Origin: Akkermansia muciniphila
GTDB taxonomy: Bacteria; Verrucomicrobiota; Verrucomicrobiia; Verrucomicrobiales; Akkermansiaceae
Assembly: GCA_947624785.1 (NCBI GenBank)
Contig: CANQLV010000005.1
Coordinates: forward strand, 124,001 to 188,000
Length of the DNA stretch: 64,000 bases
Reading direction: 5' to 3'
Both the position numbers and the translations under genes were made by a program. Below, piece by piece: positions 51,292 to 63,148 of the stretch (its first letter is position 1; each line of letters opens with the position of its first letter). Under the pieces are notes generated by a model. The model saw only the letters and a list, made by a program, of their open reading frames with translations, did not search any database and was not told the DNA's origin.

Positions 51292-52254
51292 TTATTTACC
51301 GGAGGAAAGGTTTGCTTCCGGTTTGGGCTTGAGCAGGCAGTCGTAAAACGGGGTATAAAGCAGGTTGTTGGGAATCAGGTAGATATATCCTTCCCTGGAA
51401 TCATAGACCATATTGAACCGTTTCAGCAGGTTATTGCCCATAACGCCGTCCATTTCCGCGCTGCTCTGGGTGCCTCCCGTGACGGTGGAAAAAGCGCCGG
51501 GAATGAGGGGAAGCTTGCAGTCGCCGAGTTGAATACTGTCGAAAAGGACGTTTTCCAGAACTCCGGTATTGGGGTCCGAGCTGGAAATGCGGGAAATGGA
51601 AAACGGAGTCTGGCTTCCCAGCAAATGATGTTTTTTCACGAAGGGGGTGTTCAGGTCCAGAACACGGTCGGAGCCGGTATCCACGGATAAGCGGAGCTGG
51701 TGGGTTTTCCCGTTGACCGTCACCTGTCCGGGGACGACGGGAATTCCCATTACGTATTCAATCTTCAGGCGGATGGCGTGGGGAGGGGGAGTATAGGAAC
51801 CGTGCGGGTACAGGTAAATTTTCCGGTCCGTGTAATTCACCTCCGTGACCTGCTGTTGGATAAACCACAGCCCCAGCACGCCGTCCCACTGGTCCGGCGA
51901 GTAGGGAATGGCAATAAAGGGGACATGCTCCATGGATTGCCCGCCGATGGAAAATTTGTTTTCCGTGCTTTTGCGGACTTCTCCGGACCCCGTAGCGCCG
52001 TGGTTGACGACGGTTTCATTGAACTCCATGGGAATTCCCTTCAGGGAATTGGTGCTGATGACCATGGCGGTAGCCCCCGTATCAAAAAGGAAACGCAGGG
52101 GATGGCTGCCGTTGACGCGCCCGTTCACGTAAATGCGGCTGGCAGTGCCCAGTTCAAAGGGAATGCTTGCAGCAGGAGTATTTTCGCCTGACACCGGAAG
52201 AGTGCACGCCATTAAAATGAAAAAAAATGTCAGGATTTTTCCCATGTATTTCAT
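51292..52254 (-). CDS. Exported retropepsin-like aspartic protease with two DTG motifs
   Basis: A protein of about 320 residues from the ATG at 52254 (52287 and 52245 are alternatives). The signal peptide (MGKILTFFFILMACTLPVSG) may end in a lipoprotein cysteine, but the box is not standard. Two retropepsin-type active-site motifs occur in one chain: FLFDTGATAM (Asp58) and LSVDTGSDRV (Asp192), each at the start of a similar beta domain. Most bacterial retropepsins have one motif and dimerise; a single chain with two is closer to a pseudodimer. Substrate unknown. It is transcribed toward the end of the polysaccharide operon but is not part of it. Confidence 0.82.
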   Translation of the reverse strand: MKYMGKILTFFFILMACTLPVSGENTPAASIPFELGTASRIYVNGRVNGSHPLRFLFDTGATAMVISTNSLKGIPMEFNETVVNHGATGSGEVRKSTENKFSIGGQSMEHVPFIAIPYSPDQWDGVLGLWFIQQQVTEVNYTDRKIYLYPHGSYTPPPHAIRLKIEYVMGIPVVPGQVTVNGKTHQLRLSVDTGSDRVLDLNTPFVKKHHLLGSQTPFSISRISSSDPNTGVLENVLFDSIQLGDCKLPLIPGAFSTVTGGTQSSAEMDGVMGNNLLKRFNMVYDSREGYIYLIPNNLLYTPFYDCLLKPKPEANLSSGK

Positions 52255-52462
52255 TTTCCCGAATGGGCAGTTGTTCAATTTTTCCAAGAGGATATGAAGA
52301 ACGGCATTCCGGGATGCCTGTATATCCTCCGGTGCGCGCCGCTTATAGCAAATGCGCTATGAGGCAACAATGTAAAATCATTTTAAATGCTAAAAACTTC
52401 AGAAGGATGTTTCTATTTGGCCGGGATGTCTTGGATAAGGCAGGTTGATCAAAAGAAGCATA

Positions 52463-55400
52463 TCAGCTATTAGAGGAATATAGTTTCTGATGAAGAATCT
52501 TGAACACCCCGCTATTTCTCCATGCCTTTGCATTGCCGATTACATAAATGACTTCTTTAGCACGGGTTGCTGCCACATTTAAAAGGTTGGGGGTTTTTCC
52601 TGCCCAGAAACGCGCTCCGGCTTGTTCCATTTCAGGAGCTCCAAGAACAAAAATGACTGCCTCAGCTTCTCTGCCCTGAACAGTATGAACTGTTCCTATG
52701 TGTTCCTGGGACCACTGATAGGAATCGTGAACCCATCCTTTCAGGACGGAAGAGTTCTCCAATAAAGAGCGTAACCCATTCTGCACATCGACAAAGGGGG
52801 TGATGATATATAAATCCGGTTCGCATCCTCCATTTCTTATGGTTTGCAAAAGGCGGATGACATGTTGTCCTTCCTCTCTGGACCATTTGCCGTCGGCACT
52901 CCCTTCCACATGAATCCAGCGTGAAGGACCTGCTGCTTGAATGATGGAGGAAGGTCCGGGAACTTTGCCTTGTACCATCATATTGTCGTAGGCGACCGCA
53001 TTGGAGATGGAGAACATGGGCTCGGCGCACCTGCGATGGACAAGAAGAGGTACTCCGACTTCTCTCGTTCCATCAGGTGTTTCAAAGCGTCCGATATAAG
53101 TTGTCGTCCGGTCCGCGAGAGTTTGAGCAGAAGCTTCCGGAGCATTGTAAATATTGGCGTTAACGCCAAAATGATTGCATATGGTTCTGGTCAGGTGATC
53201 AGGTAATACGACAATCGGTTCAATTTGCATTGGATCCCCAACGATGACGGCACGTTTGGAACGCAGCAGCGCTCCTACAGCCGCCTGTGGAAGGGCCTGC
53301 CCGGCTTCATCAATGAGAAGCCATCCAAGTTCTTTTTTTGCTACCCCGGCAAACATGGCGCTGAAGGAAGCGAATGTCGTGGAGACCACGGGGACAATGA
53401 GAAATAAAGTCGCCCATAAATCGTTGATGAGAGTATCCTTTTCAGAGGGTCCAAGAGATTTGTTGCCGGAATTGTCAAAAAATGCACAGCAATTGTGGCG
53501 TATTTGTTTTGCGGCTCCGTCAATGAAGGCTTTGTGAAGCATCATGGAGGCTTCATAAAGGTCTCCCCGCAGACGTGTTATCCGGGAGTCTAACCAGGGA
53601 ACACTTGTCTGGCGTTGTTCATGAGACTGGGAGAAGTAGTCTGCATCAATAAAAGTTCCGGTATGTTTCCGGGTATACTCGGAGTAATGTTGAGTCTTAT
53701 CGTTTTTTTGATCGGAAAGATGGTTCAGTGTTTCTTCTTCCTCCAATATCCTTTTTTTCAAAGAAGTTCGTTGTTCCTTCAGATGAAGAAGTTGCTCGTT
53801 CGACTGGCTAAGGTCCTTTTCTGCAGATTGAAATGTCTTTTCCGCGATGGAGGTGGCATGTGACCATTCCCGGTAAATGGAAGGGAAAAATAAACGGCGG
53901 AAAAATCCCGGTTTCCGGGCTCTAAGTTCATTGTATTTCAGCGTTAAATCATGCAAGGAAAGCTGTTTCCGGGTAATATCCTGTTCTTTCCGTTTAAATG
54001 TTTCTTCCAGTTGTTGATGTTCCTCTGTTAATTGAAATAAGTTTTTTTCATGTTCCTTTATTTCCTCAACATGCCAACAAATTTCACTGTACAGGTCGTG
54101 AATAGTTTGCAACCGGGAGAGTTCTTTATCTACTACCTTGAGGATTTCAAGAAAATGCTGTCTGGCCTTATGCCACCGTTTCAGTGCTTCTTCATGATCT
54201 TTGGGGGCGTCTTCTTGCTCAATAATGGGAGCAACACATGTTGTGTCTGTCCCATTGTCATTGGAAAGACTACCTATGTACCTGAGATATGTCTGTAATC
54301 CGTAATTTTTATCCCACCAAAATTGCTCCCGGAAATGAAAGCGATTGGACGATTTTCCAAGTGCAGCGCTAATGATACCCCATGTTTTTCTGGAAAACAG
54401 GGCATCGGATATCGTGGAAAAGTATCCTTTTGGAAAACATTCTTCTGCTACTGCATTGCGTCCCGGCAATTCCTGGCTAATGTTTTCTACCGCCTTGTTA
54501 TTGGAAGAGGCGATGACGATTTCGAAACCCTTCAATTTAGGTGAAAGAGAGTATAGGTAGAGACAAGCACTGCCTCTTTTCACCTTTTCACCAGAATACT
54601 TGAAGGCGTCTTCAGGATCGTTAAAGTCAGCCATCGCCTTGGCTCTTTCAAAGACGATGCCTGCGATGATATCCCGGAGCAAGGTGGTTTTCCCTGTTCC
54701 CGGTGGTCCATTTACGGCGAGGATGCCTCCATTTTGTAATTCAGAGAGGGCGATGTTGACAGCACATTGTTGAAGTGGCGCTAGGGAATGCCGTCCCTGG
54801 CCGGGCCATGCAGCCAATGGGAATAGAAATGGAGAAAGGATTTGCCTGACGGCGGAAGGGTCGTGCAGGAGATCCCAACGCTCAAGGGGCGGCAACATTC
54901 CGAGATAGCGTCTCAGATTATCCGGAAGCCTTTTTTTCTGTGACAACCGTTTGGCCCAGTCGAGGTCCTTAAGAAAAAATGAGTTGAGTAAAGGAGGTTC
55001 CGGGGCTTCTTTGAGCTGGTTCCACTGGTACATGCGCAGGATAAAGGATGGTTCCTTCACTAAAGCCCTGTCCAGGCTGAGGGTGGTGACCAGCCAGCTG
55101 TAAGCGTCCATGATATCGGATGAATGAAGAGGCTGCAAGTTCCCGTCCTCATCCCTTCTGCTTAATCTGGAGGTAAGTTTGTTGATGAGGTTCTCCTCGG
55201 CCAGCGGCCACTGCTCCAGACGGCGTAAATCACCTTTTAACGCGATGGGAACACCCCATCCAAAACTGGAAATGGCGATAGAATTCTGCCCTGCAATTTT
55301 TCCTGTTACGTCTACAATGACGCTGGCTAGTATTGCTTCCCCTGAAGGGGACGGCCGTTGTTCCCGGGAGTCTGAATAAACGTTAAGCAGTTCTTTCACG

Positions 55401-55738
55401 GCTCCCACCATGGAGATGGAGCCGAGAATAATTTGGTAATAAATCCGGTAGCCCGGTCGGAAATTTTTGTCTTTATATTCCCAGGGTAGGAACCGGTCTT
55501 TAAACCGGATAACATTTTTAGAGTTTCCATCACATAAACTCTCCGGTTTACGGAAAGTCATGGGAGATAAGACCTCCATGGCGATCCAGGAGTTGAGTAC
55601 AGCTTCTGAAGGAGAAAATTCGCGATCAGCATCTGTGAGCGGAGTTCTTTCCAACGTCATGGTGTTGACGTGGGGATGGTCGGGACTGGAATTTTTTTCT
55701 TCCACGTGCTCTTCCTTGTTTACTTGTTGAACCTCCAT
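52463..55738 (-). CDS. UPF1-like superfamily 1 helicase with coiled-coil insertion
   Basis: A 1091-residue helicase of the AAA_11/AAA_12 (COG1112, UPF1-like) type. Residues 1-330 form an unrecognised N-terminal domain. Motif I is NGPPGTGKTTLL near 345-356; a long coiled coil at about 500-690 is inserted before motif II, LLIDEAGQALPQ near 806-817, and motif III GDPMQIEPIV. Motifs V and VI follow (GTVHTVQGREAEAVIFVLG and LLNVAATRAKEVIYVIGN). No nuclease or phospholipase-D domain is seen at the C terminus, unlike type II Mokosh. GC is clearly lower than in the polysaccharide locus. It lies just downstream of the STAND nuclease gene on the same strand, which suggests a defence island. Confidence 0.85.
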   Translation of the reverse strand: MEVQQVNKEEHVEEKNSSPDHPHVNTMTLERTPLTDADREFSPSEAVLNSWIAMEVLSPMTFRKPESLCDGNSKNVIRFKDRFLPWEYKDKNFRPGYRIYYQIILGSISMVGAVKELLNVYSDSREQRPSPSGEAILASVIVDVTGKIAGQNSIAISSFGWGVPIALKGDLRRLEQWPLAEENLINKLTSRLSRRDEDGNLQPLHSSDIMDAYSWLVTTLSLDRALVKEPSFILRMYQWNQLKEAPEPPLLNSFFLKDLDWAKRLSQKKRLPDNLRRYLGMLPPLERWDLLHDPSAVRQILSPFLFPLAAWPGQGRHSLAPLQQCAVNIALSELQNGGILAVNGPPGTGKTTLLRDIIAGIVFERAKAMADFNDPEDAFKYSGEKVKRGSACLYLYSLSPKLKGFEIVIASSNNKAVENISQELPGRNAVAEECFPKGYFSTISDALFSRKTWGIISAALGKSSNRFHFREQFWWDKNYGLQTYLRYIGSLSNDNGTDTTCVAPIIEQEDAPKDHEEALKRWHKARQHFLEILKVVDKELSRLQTIHDLYSEICWHVEEIKEHEKNLFQLTEEHQQLEETFKRKEQDITRKQLSLHDLTLKYNELRARKPGFFRRLFFPSIYREWSHATSIAEKTFQSAEKDLSQSNEQLLHLKEQRTSLKKRILEEEETLNHLSDQKNDKTQHYSEYTRKHTGTFIDADYFSQSHEQRQTSVPWLDSRITRLRGDLYEASMMLHKAFIDGAAKQIRHNCCAFFDNSGNKSLGPSEKDTLINDLWATLFLIVPVVSTTFASFSAMFAGVAKKELGWLLIDEAGQALPQAAVGALLRSKRAVIVGDPMQIEPIVVLPDHLTRTICNHFGVNANIYNAPEASAQTLADRTTTYIGRFETPDGTREVGVPLLVHRRCAEPMFSISNAVAYDNMMVQGKVPGPSSIIQAAGPSRWIHVEGSADGKWSREEGQHVIRLLQTIRNGGCEPDLYIITPFVDVQNGLRSLLENSSVLKGWVHDSYQWSQEHIGTVHTVQGREAEAVIFVLGAPEMEQAGARFWAGKTPNLLNVAATRAKEVIYVIGNAKAWRNSGVFKILHQKLYSSNS

Positions 55739-56075: not shown

Positions 56076-59000
56076 TTATGTCCGTTCAAAGGTATTGTAC
56101 CAATCATCCAGATTTACATGCTTTTTCTGCAAGTGTTCAATGATGGCAAGAGACCGGTGTAAAAACTGTCCCTGATCAGATATTTCTCTGTTTTCTCCCT
56201 CCTTGAAAAGTTCCGTAATAACGGTAAGGATTTCAGAACCATAAAAGTACTGCCAATTTTCAGCGACTGTATTTTGGGATAAAATTTCCATTATTTCCAG
56301 GATATCATCTATATGATTGGGCGCCGCCTTTGCCATCCATGAAAAGAAGGAATGGTCCTTGATGCACATGGAAGGTTTTTTCTCCAGGATTATTTTTGCT
56401 AATTGGATGAGAGTGTGATCTTGAATCTCGGATGAACAAAATGTATGGATCAGAGTTGTTTCTCTGATTAACGCCTCTTTCTTTGAATCTAAAATAAATC
56501 TGATTTCTTCCAGACATTTATTGATGATATTTTTGCTTTCAGCGTCATGGCGATCTTCTAAGTTGGAAAGATATACATTTAAAGCGCCTTTCCATGAGGT
56601 GTCTGTCCGGGCAGACTTCAGCTCTTCTTCAAAAATTTCTTTGGTAATTTTATTGGCTAGATAACATAAAGCCTCCAATTGACCCCAGTTTTTCCCGATA
56701 GAGTCACTTTGAGATGCATGCATGGTCCTCAGATGAGGTATTACTAAATCAATTTCTTTGTGATAACAGTAATAGAGGTAACGGTAAACTTCATGTGTCC
56801 CGTATAGTTGTTCATCTGTAACTATTTCATTGAATAATTCCCATGCCATTTCCCGGTTATCATTCAATAACGGAAGCATCCTATCTATGTAGAATGTTTT
56901 GACTGACAGATTTTCCATCACGGTAAAATCTCTGAGCAATTGCATGTGCTCGGAAGAGATTCCTTTCCCTCGTTTTTTTTCAAAAAGAGTGAAGGCTGCC
57001 TGGATTGTCGATCCTATGGGAGAATTCAACACTCTTCCTGTGTCGATTTTTTCTATCTCTTCCACATATTGATCAACGTAATTGATAAATCTTTTTAAGT
57101 AGTTGATGATTTCCTGATACATCTTTTCATCTTCAAAAACGATCAGGGAACTGGCTTCCAACGCTGAAGCGATAGTTCTTTCACTGAAATCCGCCGTTTT
57201 TTTAATTAAAGATAAAATTGTATTCGCTATTCCCTGTGCCTCTGGTTTTTCTTTGGCTTCCCACTTGTCTGCTCTTATATGACCATATAGGTAATGAAGA
57301 TGGTCTGCAAGACCCCCTAAAACAGCGTTATGAATTTGATCATCCAGTTCCGTCCAATGCTTTTTCCATAGGTAGTCAAATTGTGTGGGAGCCATGCTAA
57401 TAGCTTTCTGCAATTGATATTGAATGTGGGGATCTTCATGATCTAAGTGGTATGTTTGATAATTTATGTCATGAAAATGTTTCAGTACTCGTAAAACTTC
57501 GTTTTCAGAAAAACACAGGAAACGTTCAGTAGGGACGGCTGAAGGAACATACCCTCCCGATATTCGGTCTGCATCGGCAGGAAGGCAGAGGTGTAGGGAG
57601 ATACCTCCCCGTTTAGCTATATCGATGAAGGTAATAATTTTTTGTGTTTTCCATGGTTGGGGGATGATGTCGAGAAATGTAAGAACTCTTTCTTTTTGCC
57701 ATGGATCATCACTATTTTGATAAGTGTCGAAAAGTGGATCAATAATGGAAGATAGTTCTGCTTCATCGAGATATGGAGCGATTTGTTTTAATAATTGACT
57801 GGATTCATGAAGGAAGAAAAAATGTTTCTGGGTAATAAAATATCTGATGATTTGCTTGCTTTCCGTCAAATACTTTTCTGGATTAATTAGTAATGAGGAA
57901 ATTACAATAAACATGAGAGCCGGATTTTTATCGACTGCCTGCATGAGATCTGGAAGTTTTTTTATCCACCATTCTCCCCCTTGTGCACTTTGCTCCACGC
58001 ACGCTTTTCTGACCAGTATGATAAAAACGGAAAAGTTTTTTTCGTGGCTCATAAGAGTCAGATCTCCATACTCTGAAAGGCAATAATCAATGAATTCCTT
58101 GTCATCTTTTCCGGAATCATATAAATAATTTACCCATTGAATGATATGGTCCAGGCACTTTCCTAGTAAGCAGGAAGATGATTTGATGGCGTTTTCCAGA
58201 AAATCGTGATTCTTTGAAAAATGCATCCCTGAGCACCTTAAGCTTTTTTGCAGTGTTTCGAGACATTCCGGAAGGTGATGGTCATAGCCGTTTGCTATCC
58301 ATGAGAAAAGTAAATCATCATATTTTTCTGTTTCTTCCTTGGGCATCTTCATCAAGATCCGTTCAACAGGGAAGGATACATATTCGTCTTGATAATGATG
58401 GCTTAAAATATTTTTTAGAAGGGGAAATGTTTCATTAATATTGGCGATATCATGTTTTTCAAGAGAAGAAATAATATCTTTTTTCAAGCTTTCATGATCG
58501 GGCCAGGAGAATTCCAGTACGCTTAACCAAAAATCAGTAATTTCCTTTGGATGAGACTCATAAAATTCACTGGCTTGATGGACCATCCATCCGAGCCAGT
58601 TTTCATTCTCTGACTGGCAAATCGCATCAAACCAGTCTTTTCTCAAAAATAGGAACCATTCGTATTGCTTGATGTTTCTGAAGAACAGCAAAAACAACTC
58701 ATTTTTTGACTGGAACAGGTAACGAACCAGTGCTTGATCATCGGGTTCCGGAATGACCTCTGCAAGAGAAGAAACCATCAGCCTTTTCAAATGGAAGGCG
58801 ACTTGGTTGGAATCCAGAAGTCCTCTTAATTCCTGTCGGAATTGTTCAGGGTTATGACTCCTGAGGTAAAAGAAGTATGTTCTGACAATGGGCCGTACAA
58901 AGGGAACAGGAGGCAGTTCTCCTGCGTATGCAGACAACGTTTTTCCTTGCCGGATGGCGTTCCTTACCAAAATGAGATCCAGATAGGTTTGATGGCCGAA

Positions 59001-60671
59001 TCTTAACTTGGAATATCCCGATTTCTCGAGAATATGGAGGCTTTGCAAAATACGAATATCTTCCCCCTGCAATTTCGTTTCCTCTTCCATGATTTCCATT
59101 CTGTGACGGTCCAGCATTCTCAGCGCAATCTCATGAAGAGATTTTTCGATTTGTTTGCGGGAAGGTTCTCCCATTTTTTCATTCAGGGAAAACTTCAAAT
59201 ATCCGGACAGAAGGTCGATGTCATTCGATTGAGTAGGGACCATTCCCTGCTGACGAAGTTCATGATAGATCCAAAGCATGCAGGGTGATGAAAGGAGACA
59301 TTTCTGTCTGTCACCCACTTGAGAGGCATTCCAGCCCCATTTTTCAAAAAGCGGAACAATCTCCTCCTTCCAGTCCCAGGGTTTTACAGAGATACGTTTT
59401 TCCCAGGGGATAGCCCGTAGACGAGAGTCATAGGCAGCATCAAACGTTCTACAGGAAGCGACGATAAAAATATTGGGGATATTTCTAAGTTGATCAATCA
59501 GGGCGGAAAAGTATCTGAAAGCAACGCCGCCCGTTGAGATGGCGATGACGTCAAGAGAATCCATGGCAACGACGACAGGATGCCATTCAGCAAACCGGGC
59601 TATTTTTCGAAAAAGGTCGTGATCCAGTTCCTGGGATATCCTGCCTGCGTCGTTCCCGATGCCGTCAAATTCCTTGGTTTGAAGGTAGATGACGTTGTAT
59701 GAAGTGTCTGGATCTTGTTCCAGCTGATCGACAAGATTAAGGAGAACGCAACTTTTTCCGGCGCCAGGTCCTCCTTCAAGCAATATGGTCTTGTTTCCGG
59801 CATCAAGATGCTGAAGAATTTCTTTCACTTCCGGCCGAGGAATTCTTTCCCCTCCTATTTCCCTGAGAAAGCTACTTCGGCCGATGGCAGAAATTCTCTG
59901 GATCTCTTCTCTCAGAATTTCTACGGGATACCGGGGTGCTAAACAAATACCGTTCCGTACGAATTTTTCCAGCACATCCTGGCGGGTGATGAAGGAAGAG
60001 TCGGTACATCTTGATTCCAATCCAATTTTTTTCTCCCGGGCGTTGGCCTTTGCAATCAGCTCCAGCACTGCGTCCAGAGCTGCATCCGCATTGGTCGCTA
60101 TGGAAGAAAGGTGTAGGAGGGTACATTTCCTGATAATTTCCTGTTCAATGGTTCTGAAGAAAAGCGTTTTTAAGAATTTCCAAAGTTCGGTGTCTTCTTC
60201 CTGAACATCCAGGACTTCTTTCAATTTTTGATAAATGGCGTTTATTGTTGCATTGTTATCGATGGCGGTGTGGATGAGTGATTGTACATCGGGATAGGAA
60301 CGGGATTCTTCCGCCAGTTTTCCCAAGTCACCGAATCCGTCTTGACAATAAAAATCAATGGATTCGATATCATCAGCTCTTTTGAAGAGGTTCCATGCCT
60401 TCTTCAGTTCTGCCCCCAATCCGTGGATAGTCCAATCCCTGCGGGCTGTCTGGTTTTTTTTACACTGGCAGTAGGTTTTTCTACCTGATTCATAATGAAT
60501 AATAAAGTCTTCTACTTCTATTGGGCCGCCATCCAGGACGCGTGTTGATTCAATTTCCATCCGGACGATTTTTTGTCCGCTCTTTTCATCCATCATCTCG
60601 GCAATATATTGGGCGACCAGCAAATTCTGGTATCTGTCACCCTTATGAGATTCAACTGCGCTTCTACTCAT
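56076..60671 (-). CDS. Avs-like STAND NTPase with Cap4-type nuclease domain
   Basis: A 1531-residue protein. Residues 1-120 look like a Cap4/DUF4297-type DNA endonuclease: ESHKGDRYQ (7-15), Asp55 in IEVEDFIIHY, and Gln69-Cys-Lys71 in YCQCKKN, giving the D...QxK core of PD-(D/E)xK enzymes. A STAND-type ATPase follows, with Walker A LLEGGPGAGKSCVLL near 296-310 and Walker B VVVAMDSLDV near 366-375. The remaining 1000 residues are helical repeats, the usual target-sensing part. This order matches Avs antiphage proteins, which bind a phage protein, oligomerise and cut DNA. Start 60671 is chosen because the longer frame from 60767 begins inside a terminator hairpin. GC is low, suggesting transfer. 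Confidence 0.8.
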   Translation of the reverse strand: MSRSAVESHKGDRYQNLLVAQYIAEMMDEKSGQKIVRMEIESTRVLDGGPIEVEDFIIHYESGRKTYCQCKKNQTARRDWTIHGLGAELKKAWNLFKRADDIESIDFYCQDGFGDLGKLAEESRSYPDVQSLIHTAIDNNATINAIYQKLKEVLDVQEEDTELWKFLKTLFFRTIEQEIIRKCTLLHLSSIATNADAALDAVLELIAKANAREKKIGLESRCTDSSFITRQDVLEKFVRNGICLAPRYPVEILREEIQRISAIGRSSFLREIGGERIPRPEVKEILQHLDAGNKTILLEGGPGAGKSCVLLNLVDQLEQDPDTSYNVIYLQTKEFDGIGNDAGRISQELDHDLFRKIARFAEWHPVVVAMDSLDVIAISTGGVAFRYFSALIDQLRNIPNIFIVASCRTFDAAYDSRLRAIPWEKRISVKPWDWKEEIVPLFEKWGWNASQVGDRQKCLLSSPCMLWIYHELRQQGMVPTQSNDIDLLSGYLKFSLNEKMGEPSRKQIEKSLHEIALRMLDRHRMEIMEEETKLQGEDIRILQSLHILEKSGYSKLRFGHQTYLDLILVRNAIRQGKTLSAYAGELPPVPFVRPIVRTYFFYLRSHNPEQFRQELRGLLDSNQVAFHLKRLMVSSLAEVIPEPDDQALVRYLFQSKNELFLLFFRNIKQYEWFLFLRKDWFDAICQSENENWLGWMVHQASEFYESHPKEITDFWLSVLEFSWPDHESLKKDIISSLEKHDIANINETFPLLKNILSHHYQDEYVSFPVERILMKMPKEETEKYDDLLFSWIANGYDHHLPECLETLQKSLRCSGMHFSKNHDFLENAIKSSSCLLGKCLDHIIQWVNYLYDSGKDDKEFIDYCLSEYGDLTLMSHEKNFSVFIILVRKACVEQSAQGGEWWIKKLPDLMQAVDKNPALMFIVISSLLINPEKYLTESKQIIRYFITQKHFFFLHESSQLLKQIAPYLDEAELSSIIDPLFDTYQNSDDPWQKERVLTFLDIIPQPWKTQKIITFIDIAKRGGISLHLCLPADADRISGGYVPSAVPTERFLCFSENEVLRVLKHFHDINYQTYHLDHEDPHIQYQLQKAISMAPTQFDYLWKKHWTELDDQIHNAVLGGLADHLHYLYGHIRADKWEAKEKPEAQGIANTILSLIKKTADFSERTIASALEASSLIVFEDEKMYQEIINYLKRFINYVDQYVEEIEKIDTGRVLNSPIGSTIQAAFTLFEKKRGKGISSEHMQLLRDFTVMENLSVKTFYIDRMLPLLNDNREMAWELFNEIVTDEQLYGTHEVYRYLYYCYHKEIDLVIPHLRTMHASQSDSIGKNWGQLEALCYLANKITKEIFEEELKSARTDTSWKGALNVYLSNLEDRHDAESKNIINKCLEEIRFILDSKKEALIRETTLIHTFCSSEIQDHTLIQLAKIILEKKPSMCIKDHSFFSWMAKAAPNHIDDILEIMEILSQNTVAENWQYFYGSEILTVITELFKEGENREISDQGQFLHRSLAIIEHLQKKHVNLDDWYNTFERT

Positions 60672-60742
60672 TGTTTTCCAATATTTTCTATACGCAATCT
60701 TCCTGATCAACAAAAAGGAATCAATATAATTCTGTTTTTCCC

Positions 60743-60772
60743 AAAAAAGCCGTGGCTTGTTCGCCACGGCTT
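60743..60772 (-). terminator. Intrinsic terminator upstream of the STAND gene
   Basis: Stem 60747-60756 pairs perfectly with 60763-60772 (AAGCCGTGGC and its complement, six-base loop). On the minus strand it ends in a run of T residues (60748-60743). It faces the STAND gene, so it ends a transcript coming from higher coordinates and isolates that gene from the prophage remnant. Confidence 0.85.
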
Positions 60773-60804
60773 GAAGAACGGATTAGTTATTCCGCATCAC
60801 AGGT

Positions 60805-61063: not shown

Positions 61064-61822
61064 TTAGTATTTGATAATAGGCATTAAAGCCATGTTGACG
61101 GGGCGGTTTTCGTCAGCCGTCGGAACAGAGTCGGATGCATCAAAAATTAGGTTGCCGGTATATTGGGCGGAGTAGTCCGCATGACCAGTATATCTTTGGT
61201 TGCTCCCTTTCGTTTTTGAAAACACACCAGCTCCTCCTGTCGAATTAGCTTGAATATACGTAAATAAGTTTCCTGTAATATTACGGATAGCATCTCCCTG
61301 AATGCTGCCTATAGTTCTCTCTGTAGAAGTGGAACGGATGAACAATCCGTTGTCTTTTGTCAAGTCGGGAAGGGCAAAGGTCGTGACGCCGTCGCCGCCG
61401 TAGATGATGCTGATCGCCGCGTATAGTTCCGGGTATTGGCTGATTTGGAGAATGGTCCCGTTGCATTCCAGCCATCCGTCCGGCGCTACGCTGCCGCAAA
61501 ACCACATGAAACAGCCCGGGGCCACACTGGAACCGCACGGACCTGCCGGGCCTGCCGGGCCTGTTTCTCCTTTGTCTCCCTTGTCCCCTTTGGGGCCTTG
61601 TGGACCGGGAAGCCCCTGGATGCCGGGTTCTCCTTTGGGGCCTTGGGGGCCTTCCGGTCCCGGGGCTCCCGGGTCACCCTTGTCTCCTTTAGGTCCTTGG
61701 CCGCCTGAGTTCCATTTTTCCTTTTCCTGTGCCGTGACGTGAATGCTTGCGTTTCCTGCGTGAGCGGAAAATTCATTCTGCGTGGCCATCAGGATTCCGT
61801 TAATCGTGATCATCTCATTCAT
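61064..61822 (-). CDS. Phage tail-fibre-like protein with collagen repeats and tail-collar domain
   Basis: A 252-residue protein. After a short N-terminal part (residues 1-38, with [10 protein letters not shown], common in phage tail proteins), about 19 Gly-X-Y triplets occupy residues 40-97, a collagen-like triple-helix stalk. Then comes a phage tail-collar domain with [18 protein letters not shown], the Y-x-x-L-Y-A-A-I pattern and TFALPDL. Such proteins form trimeric receptor-binding fibres. The C terminus ends MALMPIIKY, as in complete tail-collar proteins. Starts at 61822 and 61813 are both possible. Confidence 0.88.
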
Positions 61823-63071: not shown

Positions 63072-63148
63072 TGGTCGGGTTGACAGGATTCGAACCTGCG
63101 ACCCCCTGCACCCCATGCAGGTGCGCTACCAGACTGCGCTACAACCCG
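63072..63148 (-). tRNA. tRNA-Pro (anticodon GGG)
   Basis: On the minus strand a 77-base tRNA begins CGGGTTG, has the D-arm GCGCAGTCTGGTAGCGC, an anticodon arm CCTGC-ATGGGGT-GCAGG with GGG at positions 34-36, the T-arm with GGTTCGAATCC, the acceptor strand CAACCCG, discriminator A and an encoded CCA (63074-63072). The seven-base loop has T33 and G37 as expected. Confidence 0.95.

Follow-up and report, generated by a model that had tools for sequence, protein, structure and literature searches.

A candidate Cap4-NACHT-solenoid immune receptor at a variable site in Akkermansia

The minus strand of a 64,000-nucleotide stretch of an Akkermansia muciniphila genome (contig CANQLV010000005.1, positions 124,001 to 188,000; hereafter the window) carries a long open reading frame of low GC content that lies among prophage debris. 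Does this frame encode a working protein, to which family would that protein belong, and what might it do? A reading of the bare sequence (the original prediction) had proposed a large STAND NTPase with a Cap4-like nuclease domain and a long C-terminal sensor resembling nothing known, i.e., an Avs-type candidate for antiphage defense.

An intact gene under purifying selection

The receptor gene (P0001, 1531 aa) is placed at 56079..60671 (minus strand, like all other features given below) on the evidence of its open frame, its match to PDB chain 9n00_A and its homologs. The frame is intact from an ATG at 60671 or a GTG at 60767 to a stop at 56076. The GTG would add 32 residues that are absent from relatives, and because the relatives begin at the same position as the ATG (with MSxxxxxSxxGD) we take the ATG, which was also the original choice, to be the start. 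GC content is 38–46% in the gene versus about 60% over most of the window, as low as had been claimed. A second copy, in another genome of the genus (G064), is 89% identical and intact over 1531 codons. Comparing the two copies gave a dN of 0.051 and a dS of 0.214; the existence of the second copy and a dN/dS of about 0.24 therefore indicate purifying selection and not a chance ORF. The surrounding prophage debris might prompt the view that the gene is what is left of a mobile element, decayed or silent, but this is hardly credible given that both copies are intact and keep their catalytic residues, and given the same dN/dS.

The part of the receptor that changes fastest between the copies is residues 1151–1531 (dN 0.08–0.10). 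For residues 901–1150 (about 57222–57971) dS to G064 is just 0.05, versus 0.17–0.43 in the rest of the gene, and this low value suggests recent recombination inside the gene. Just 5' of the start, at about 60740–60775, is a GC-rich hairpin with a run of T after it (AAGCCGTGGC-GAACAA-GCCACGGCTT), which may be the terminator of the upstream gene. The leader of the receptor gene folds better than shuffles (z −2.2); a sigma-70 promoter scan gave no excess over shuffles.

A distant member of the 9n00 family

The receptor matches PDB chain 9n00_A (an 'AAA family ATPase' of 1523 aa; entries 9n00, 9n01 and 9yix) from end to end (E 4e-137). When the PDB was searched with profiles of the two halves, 9n00_A was the sole match of the C-terminal one, and the N-terminal one found 9n00 at E 1e-299 and otherwise just weak AAA ATPase matches. 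The two proteins are about 30% identical or less, but 9n00 has a nuclease motif (VDD...QCKKN), a P-loop and a solenoid like those of the receptor. Homology over about 1520 residues, together with D-QxKKN, GxGK and DSLD motifs that all 43 aligned sequences share, makes the receptor, on sequence grounds, a member of the 9n00 family. The 9n00 protein itself falls in the main proteobacterial clade and is 83% identical to a Brenneria homolog over 577 residues. A literature search found no publication on 9n00, 9n01 or 9yix, and 9n00 was absent from the results of the fold comparisons described below, whose library ends at 2026-04-08. No 9n00-series entry was among the matches listed for PDB chains related to the T7 portal, capsid and terminase, which excludes nothing.

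A pattern scan of GTDB genomes recovered 75 relatives, most of them full length and mostly encoded by stand-alone genes. They come from at least nine phyla (Pseudomonadota, Cyanobacteriota, Nitrospirota, Chlorobiota, Bacteroidota, Thermodesulfobacteriota, Myxococcota, Ignavibacteriota and, as one bin, Paceibacterota), assignments to be read in the knowledge that bins may include foreign contigs. In the tree, a branch 2.6 changes per site long sets the window protein and its sister apart from every other member; the receptor is thus a distant member, on a deep branch, of a widespread family and not an orphan. With it, a bacterial NLR family in which a Cap4 nuclease would be combined with a NACHT switch gains this branch and a new group of hosts. 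The expectation that its sensor would resemble nothing known did not hold, given the whole-length match to a solved structure and at least 75 homologs.

Cyanobacterial members, found on plasmids and chromosomes, have a caspase (Peptidase_C14) as their N-terminal domain. In L009 and L070 this precedes what is left of the nuclease, the KKN stretch being absent, with the nuclease motif of L009 partly deleted; L084 has the caspase and no evident nuclease domain, and in L052 the caspase lies ahead of a stretch that still aligns to the nuclease. Such arrangements suggest that the receptor has a swappable effector slot, in which a caspase can stand instead of, or ahead of, the nuclease.

What company do the relatives keep? 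No gene recurs beside them, the largest neighbor clusters being antisense ORFs or unrelated repeats. Their 95 immediate neighbors include matches to type I restriction-modification, AbiE, Kiwa KwaB, a DRT reverse transcriptase and three integrases; this company, from an uncontrolled count, is no more than suggestive of a defense role. No relatives were found in viral contigs or in phage records, and since no phage record holds one these gave no hint of counter-defense or of a trigger. Megablast of E. coli genomes with an Enterobacter homolog gave no match. Four more distant STAND proteins (L012, L013, L014 and L015), mostly of 1500 aa and from the same phylum, are related mainly through the NTPase; the two of these that were tested both match the PADLOC candidate PDC-M54A.

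Predicted nuclease, switch and sensor

AlphaFold2 models were built from alignments of relatives for two halves, residues 1–655 (pLDDT 87.6, pTM 0.82) and 645–1531 (pLDDT 82.5, pTM 0.56). The predicted fold of residues 1–241 (59949..60671) is that of a Cap4-type nuclease, the presumed effector. In VIA-align comparisons it matched LmuA of Lamassu (9nxx) with Z 15.2, over an aligned range that reaches residue 399, as well as Cap4 (6vm6, Z 14.4) and the E. coli Hachiman entry 8zue (Z 13.5). Its D...QxK core lies exactly where it had been placed, at Asp55 (60507..60509) and Gln69-x-Lys71 (60459..60467), and all three residues are invariant (43/43). Pfam and PADLOC sequence models do not detect the domain in the window protein, so that the nuclease assignment is one of predicted fold plus conserved residues; in one relative, the nuclease domain does match PADLOC LmuA by sequence (E 7.9e-9). 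The model supports the proposed Cap4-like fold of this domain. Cap4 (of CBASS) and LmuA have the fold and the D...QxK residues in common with the receptor but are driven by a SAVED domain or an SMC complex, whereas the receptor's nuclease would be driven by a NACHT switch.

That switch, a STAND NTPase of the NACHT type that includes helical and winged-helix parts, occupies residues 247–655 (58707..59933), as judged from VIA-align scores and from Pfam NACHT hits in relatives. The Walker A motif GGPGAGKS (residues 300–307, 59751..59774) has G303, G305 and K306 in 43/43 sequences, and the Walker B motif VVVAMDSLD (residues 366–374, 59550..59576) has D371-S-L-D374 in 43/43; with an NTPase fold predicted around the P-loop, the ATPase originally proposed here is borne out. 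In the winged-helix motif FGHQT, His560 (58992..58994) and the adjacent Q561 are likewise present in 43/43, and we infer that His560 occupies the position of the ADP-clamping histidine of NLRs and Apaf-1. Pfam NACHT is found in 34 of the 43 family members; the window protein alone falls below the Pfam cut-offs for it. As modeled, the switch has the P-loop, Walker B and winged helix in the NLR arrangement and is of the STAND/NACHT type. Its best structural counterpart (residues about 250–655) is NLRP9, with Z 22.1 over 383 residues at 4.6 Å, and NLRP3, NLRC4, NOD2 and Apaf-1 are also among the VIA-align matches. The vertebrate NLRs (NLRP3, NLRP9, NLRC4, NOD2) thus share the NACHT-helical-winged-helix module with the receptor at Z about 20–22 over 370–385 residues, but have another effector than its nuclease, and the receptor's sensor is not an LRR.

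The remaining residues, 656–1531 (56079..58706), are assigned from the model and the 9n00 homology to a helical HEAT/ARM-like solenoid, the predicted sensor. The long C-terminal helical-repeat region that had been described is all helix in the model, though its pTM makes the long-range shape less certain than the local folds. The solenoid resembles HEAT/ARM proteins generically (Z up to 13.1), the best matches being eukaryotic solenoids; because such resemblance is generic for helical repeats, we do not take it as homology.

Relation to Avs and bNACHT proteins

Is the receptor then an Avs protein? When the N-half model was compared with the PDB by Foldseek, Avs3 ranked first and Avs4 next, and Avs3 (8dgc) and Avs4 (8dgf) have an N-terminal nuclease, a STAND switch and a long helical sensor, as the receptor would. 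VIA-align aligned Avs3 with residues 1 to 639 (473 residues, Z 18.1), at an rmsd of 15.9 that probably reflects different placement of the domains, and scored the switch highest against NACHT proteins and Avs3 somewhat below these. This shared plan and the top Foldseek rank notwithstanding, membership in AVAST (Avs1–Avs5 proper) is very unlikely. The receptor matched 0 NCBIfam families at E<=1 (Avs2 being the one Avs model whose presence there was checked by accession); no Avs was among its PADLOC matches; and the profiles of both halves found 9n00 in the PDB and no solved Avs3, Avs4 or Avs5 chain. Avs3 and Avs4 are thus not linked to the receptor by sequence profile, and its sensor looks HEAT/ARM-like, with eukaryotic solenoids as its best matches. 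No Avs was among the best 50 matches listed for the sensor model, which does not exclude a relation. The label 'Avs-type' is accordingly apt for the tripartite architecture and mode of action but not for family membership, since curated Avs models miss the protein and its switch is closest to NACHT proteins.

Another parallel is with clade 6 bNACHT proteins. In bNACHT25 and bNACHT32, which have an N-terminal nuclease and a NACHT switch, phage proteins trigger DNA degradation, a plan comparable to that of the receptor (PMC12169576). They differ in the descriptions given of the DNase, as PD-(D/E)XK, and of the C-terminus, as NCH1.

A variable site in the genus, and a neighboring helicase

Within the genus the receptor is rare, being present in 2 of 76 genomes, each time next to a Mokosh-like helicase gene. 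The site lies between argC/tRNA-Pro and an aspartyl-protease gene, its conserved edges being the tRNA-Pro (ggg; 63072..63148, ARAGORN) and the protease gene (51292..52287; Pfam Asp_protease_2, E 1.4e-18). Upstream of the receptor is a prophage remnant encoding a phage tail-collar/collagen protein (61064..61822; Pfam Collar, E 2.4e-21), a gene also present at the receptor-free sites of G070, G115 and G067. The site is clearly variable, since in G070, G017 and G115 it is empty, the flanks being separated by 1.6–1.7 kb that hold the tail-collar region and nothing else, and in G067 it holds a 4.9-kb prophage remnant. The prophage debris and tRNA gene reported beside the receptor are therefore real, and low GC, presence in two genomes and empty sites in relatives agree with the proposed transfer of a defense-like gene. 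About 100 bp are duplicated at the tRNA end of the G067 insert, and the tRNA-Pro is likely a prophage attachment site.

The adjacent gene (52463..55738) encodes an Upf1-like SF1 helicase of 1091 aa that resembles Mokosh MkoC, matching positions 245–965 of the 1136 in the PADLOC profile (E 2.7e-73); the protein ends 3 residues later. Mokosh type II has a C-terminal PLD nuclease. The helicase is of the COG1112 type that characterizes this system, and no PLD was among the 25 Pfam families listed for it. Hundreds of plasmids carry relatives of it, up to 48% identical; Klebsiella accounts for 548 of the 728 records that matched. Could receptor and helicase form one two-gene defense system, with the helicase supplying or processing the signal? 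They co-occur in both genomes, adjacent and on the same strand, and both are 89–93% identical between these genomes (93% for the helicase). Two genomes that share one island are, however, a single observation, the genes are separated by a gap of 190–340 bp with a 145-bp indel, none of the 75 other receptors has a helicase relative beside it, and the four plasmid records examined have helicase relatives without a receptor alongside. We consider such a system improbable; the helicase is probably a separate defense gene on the same island and not a receptor subunit.

Proposed mechanism and nature of the trigger

The architecture originally read from the sequence, nuclease – STAND switch – helical sensor, is supported by predicted folds and conserved motifs. 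The protein is most probably a single-protein, NLR-like anti-phage receptor that acts by abortive infection with a Cap4 nuclease as effector. By analogy with NLR, Avs and bNACHT proteins, the solenoid would keep the receptor inactive until it binds a trigger that arises in the course of infection. The NACHT switch would then exchange ADP for ATP and oligomerize, and oligomerization would gather the N-terminal nuclease domains; these would then cut cellular DNA without much sequence preference, and the infected cell would die before releasing phage progeny. The trigger is presumably a phage protein.

The receptor might instead be a general cell-suicide switch that responds to plasmid entry or to some conserved signal, from the host or from DNA damage, and not to a phage structural protein. 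Solenoid blocks are 52–77% identical among 20 other members from several phyla, which is high for a sensor of variable phage proteins, and bNACHT25 requires the host chaperone DnaJ (PMC12169576). Avs receptors, however, also recognize deeply conserved phage folds, and recent horizontal spread would by itself yield high identity. Moreover, the solenoid blocks of the window protein are just 13–34% identical to those of other members, and divergence of its solenoid to about 20% identity fits a changed partner. We judge the suicide-switch reading unlikely and favor the phage-sensing receptor. It is possible, and we propose it tentatively, that the main family recognizes one target, conserved enough to account for such sensor identity across phyla, and that the solenoid of the window lineage has been retuned to a different trigger. 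Here two sensors about 20% identical share one scaffold, and the structure of one is solved, which makes it directly testable what such solenoids bind.
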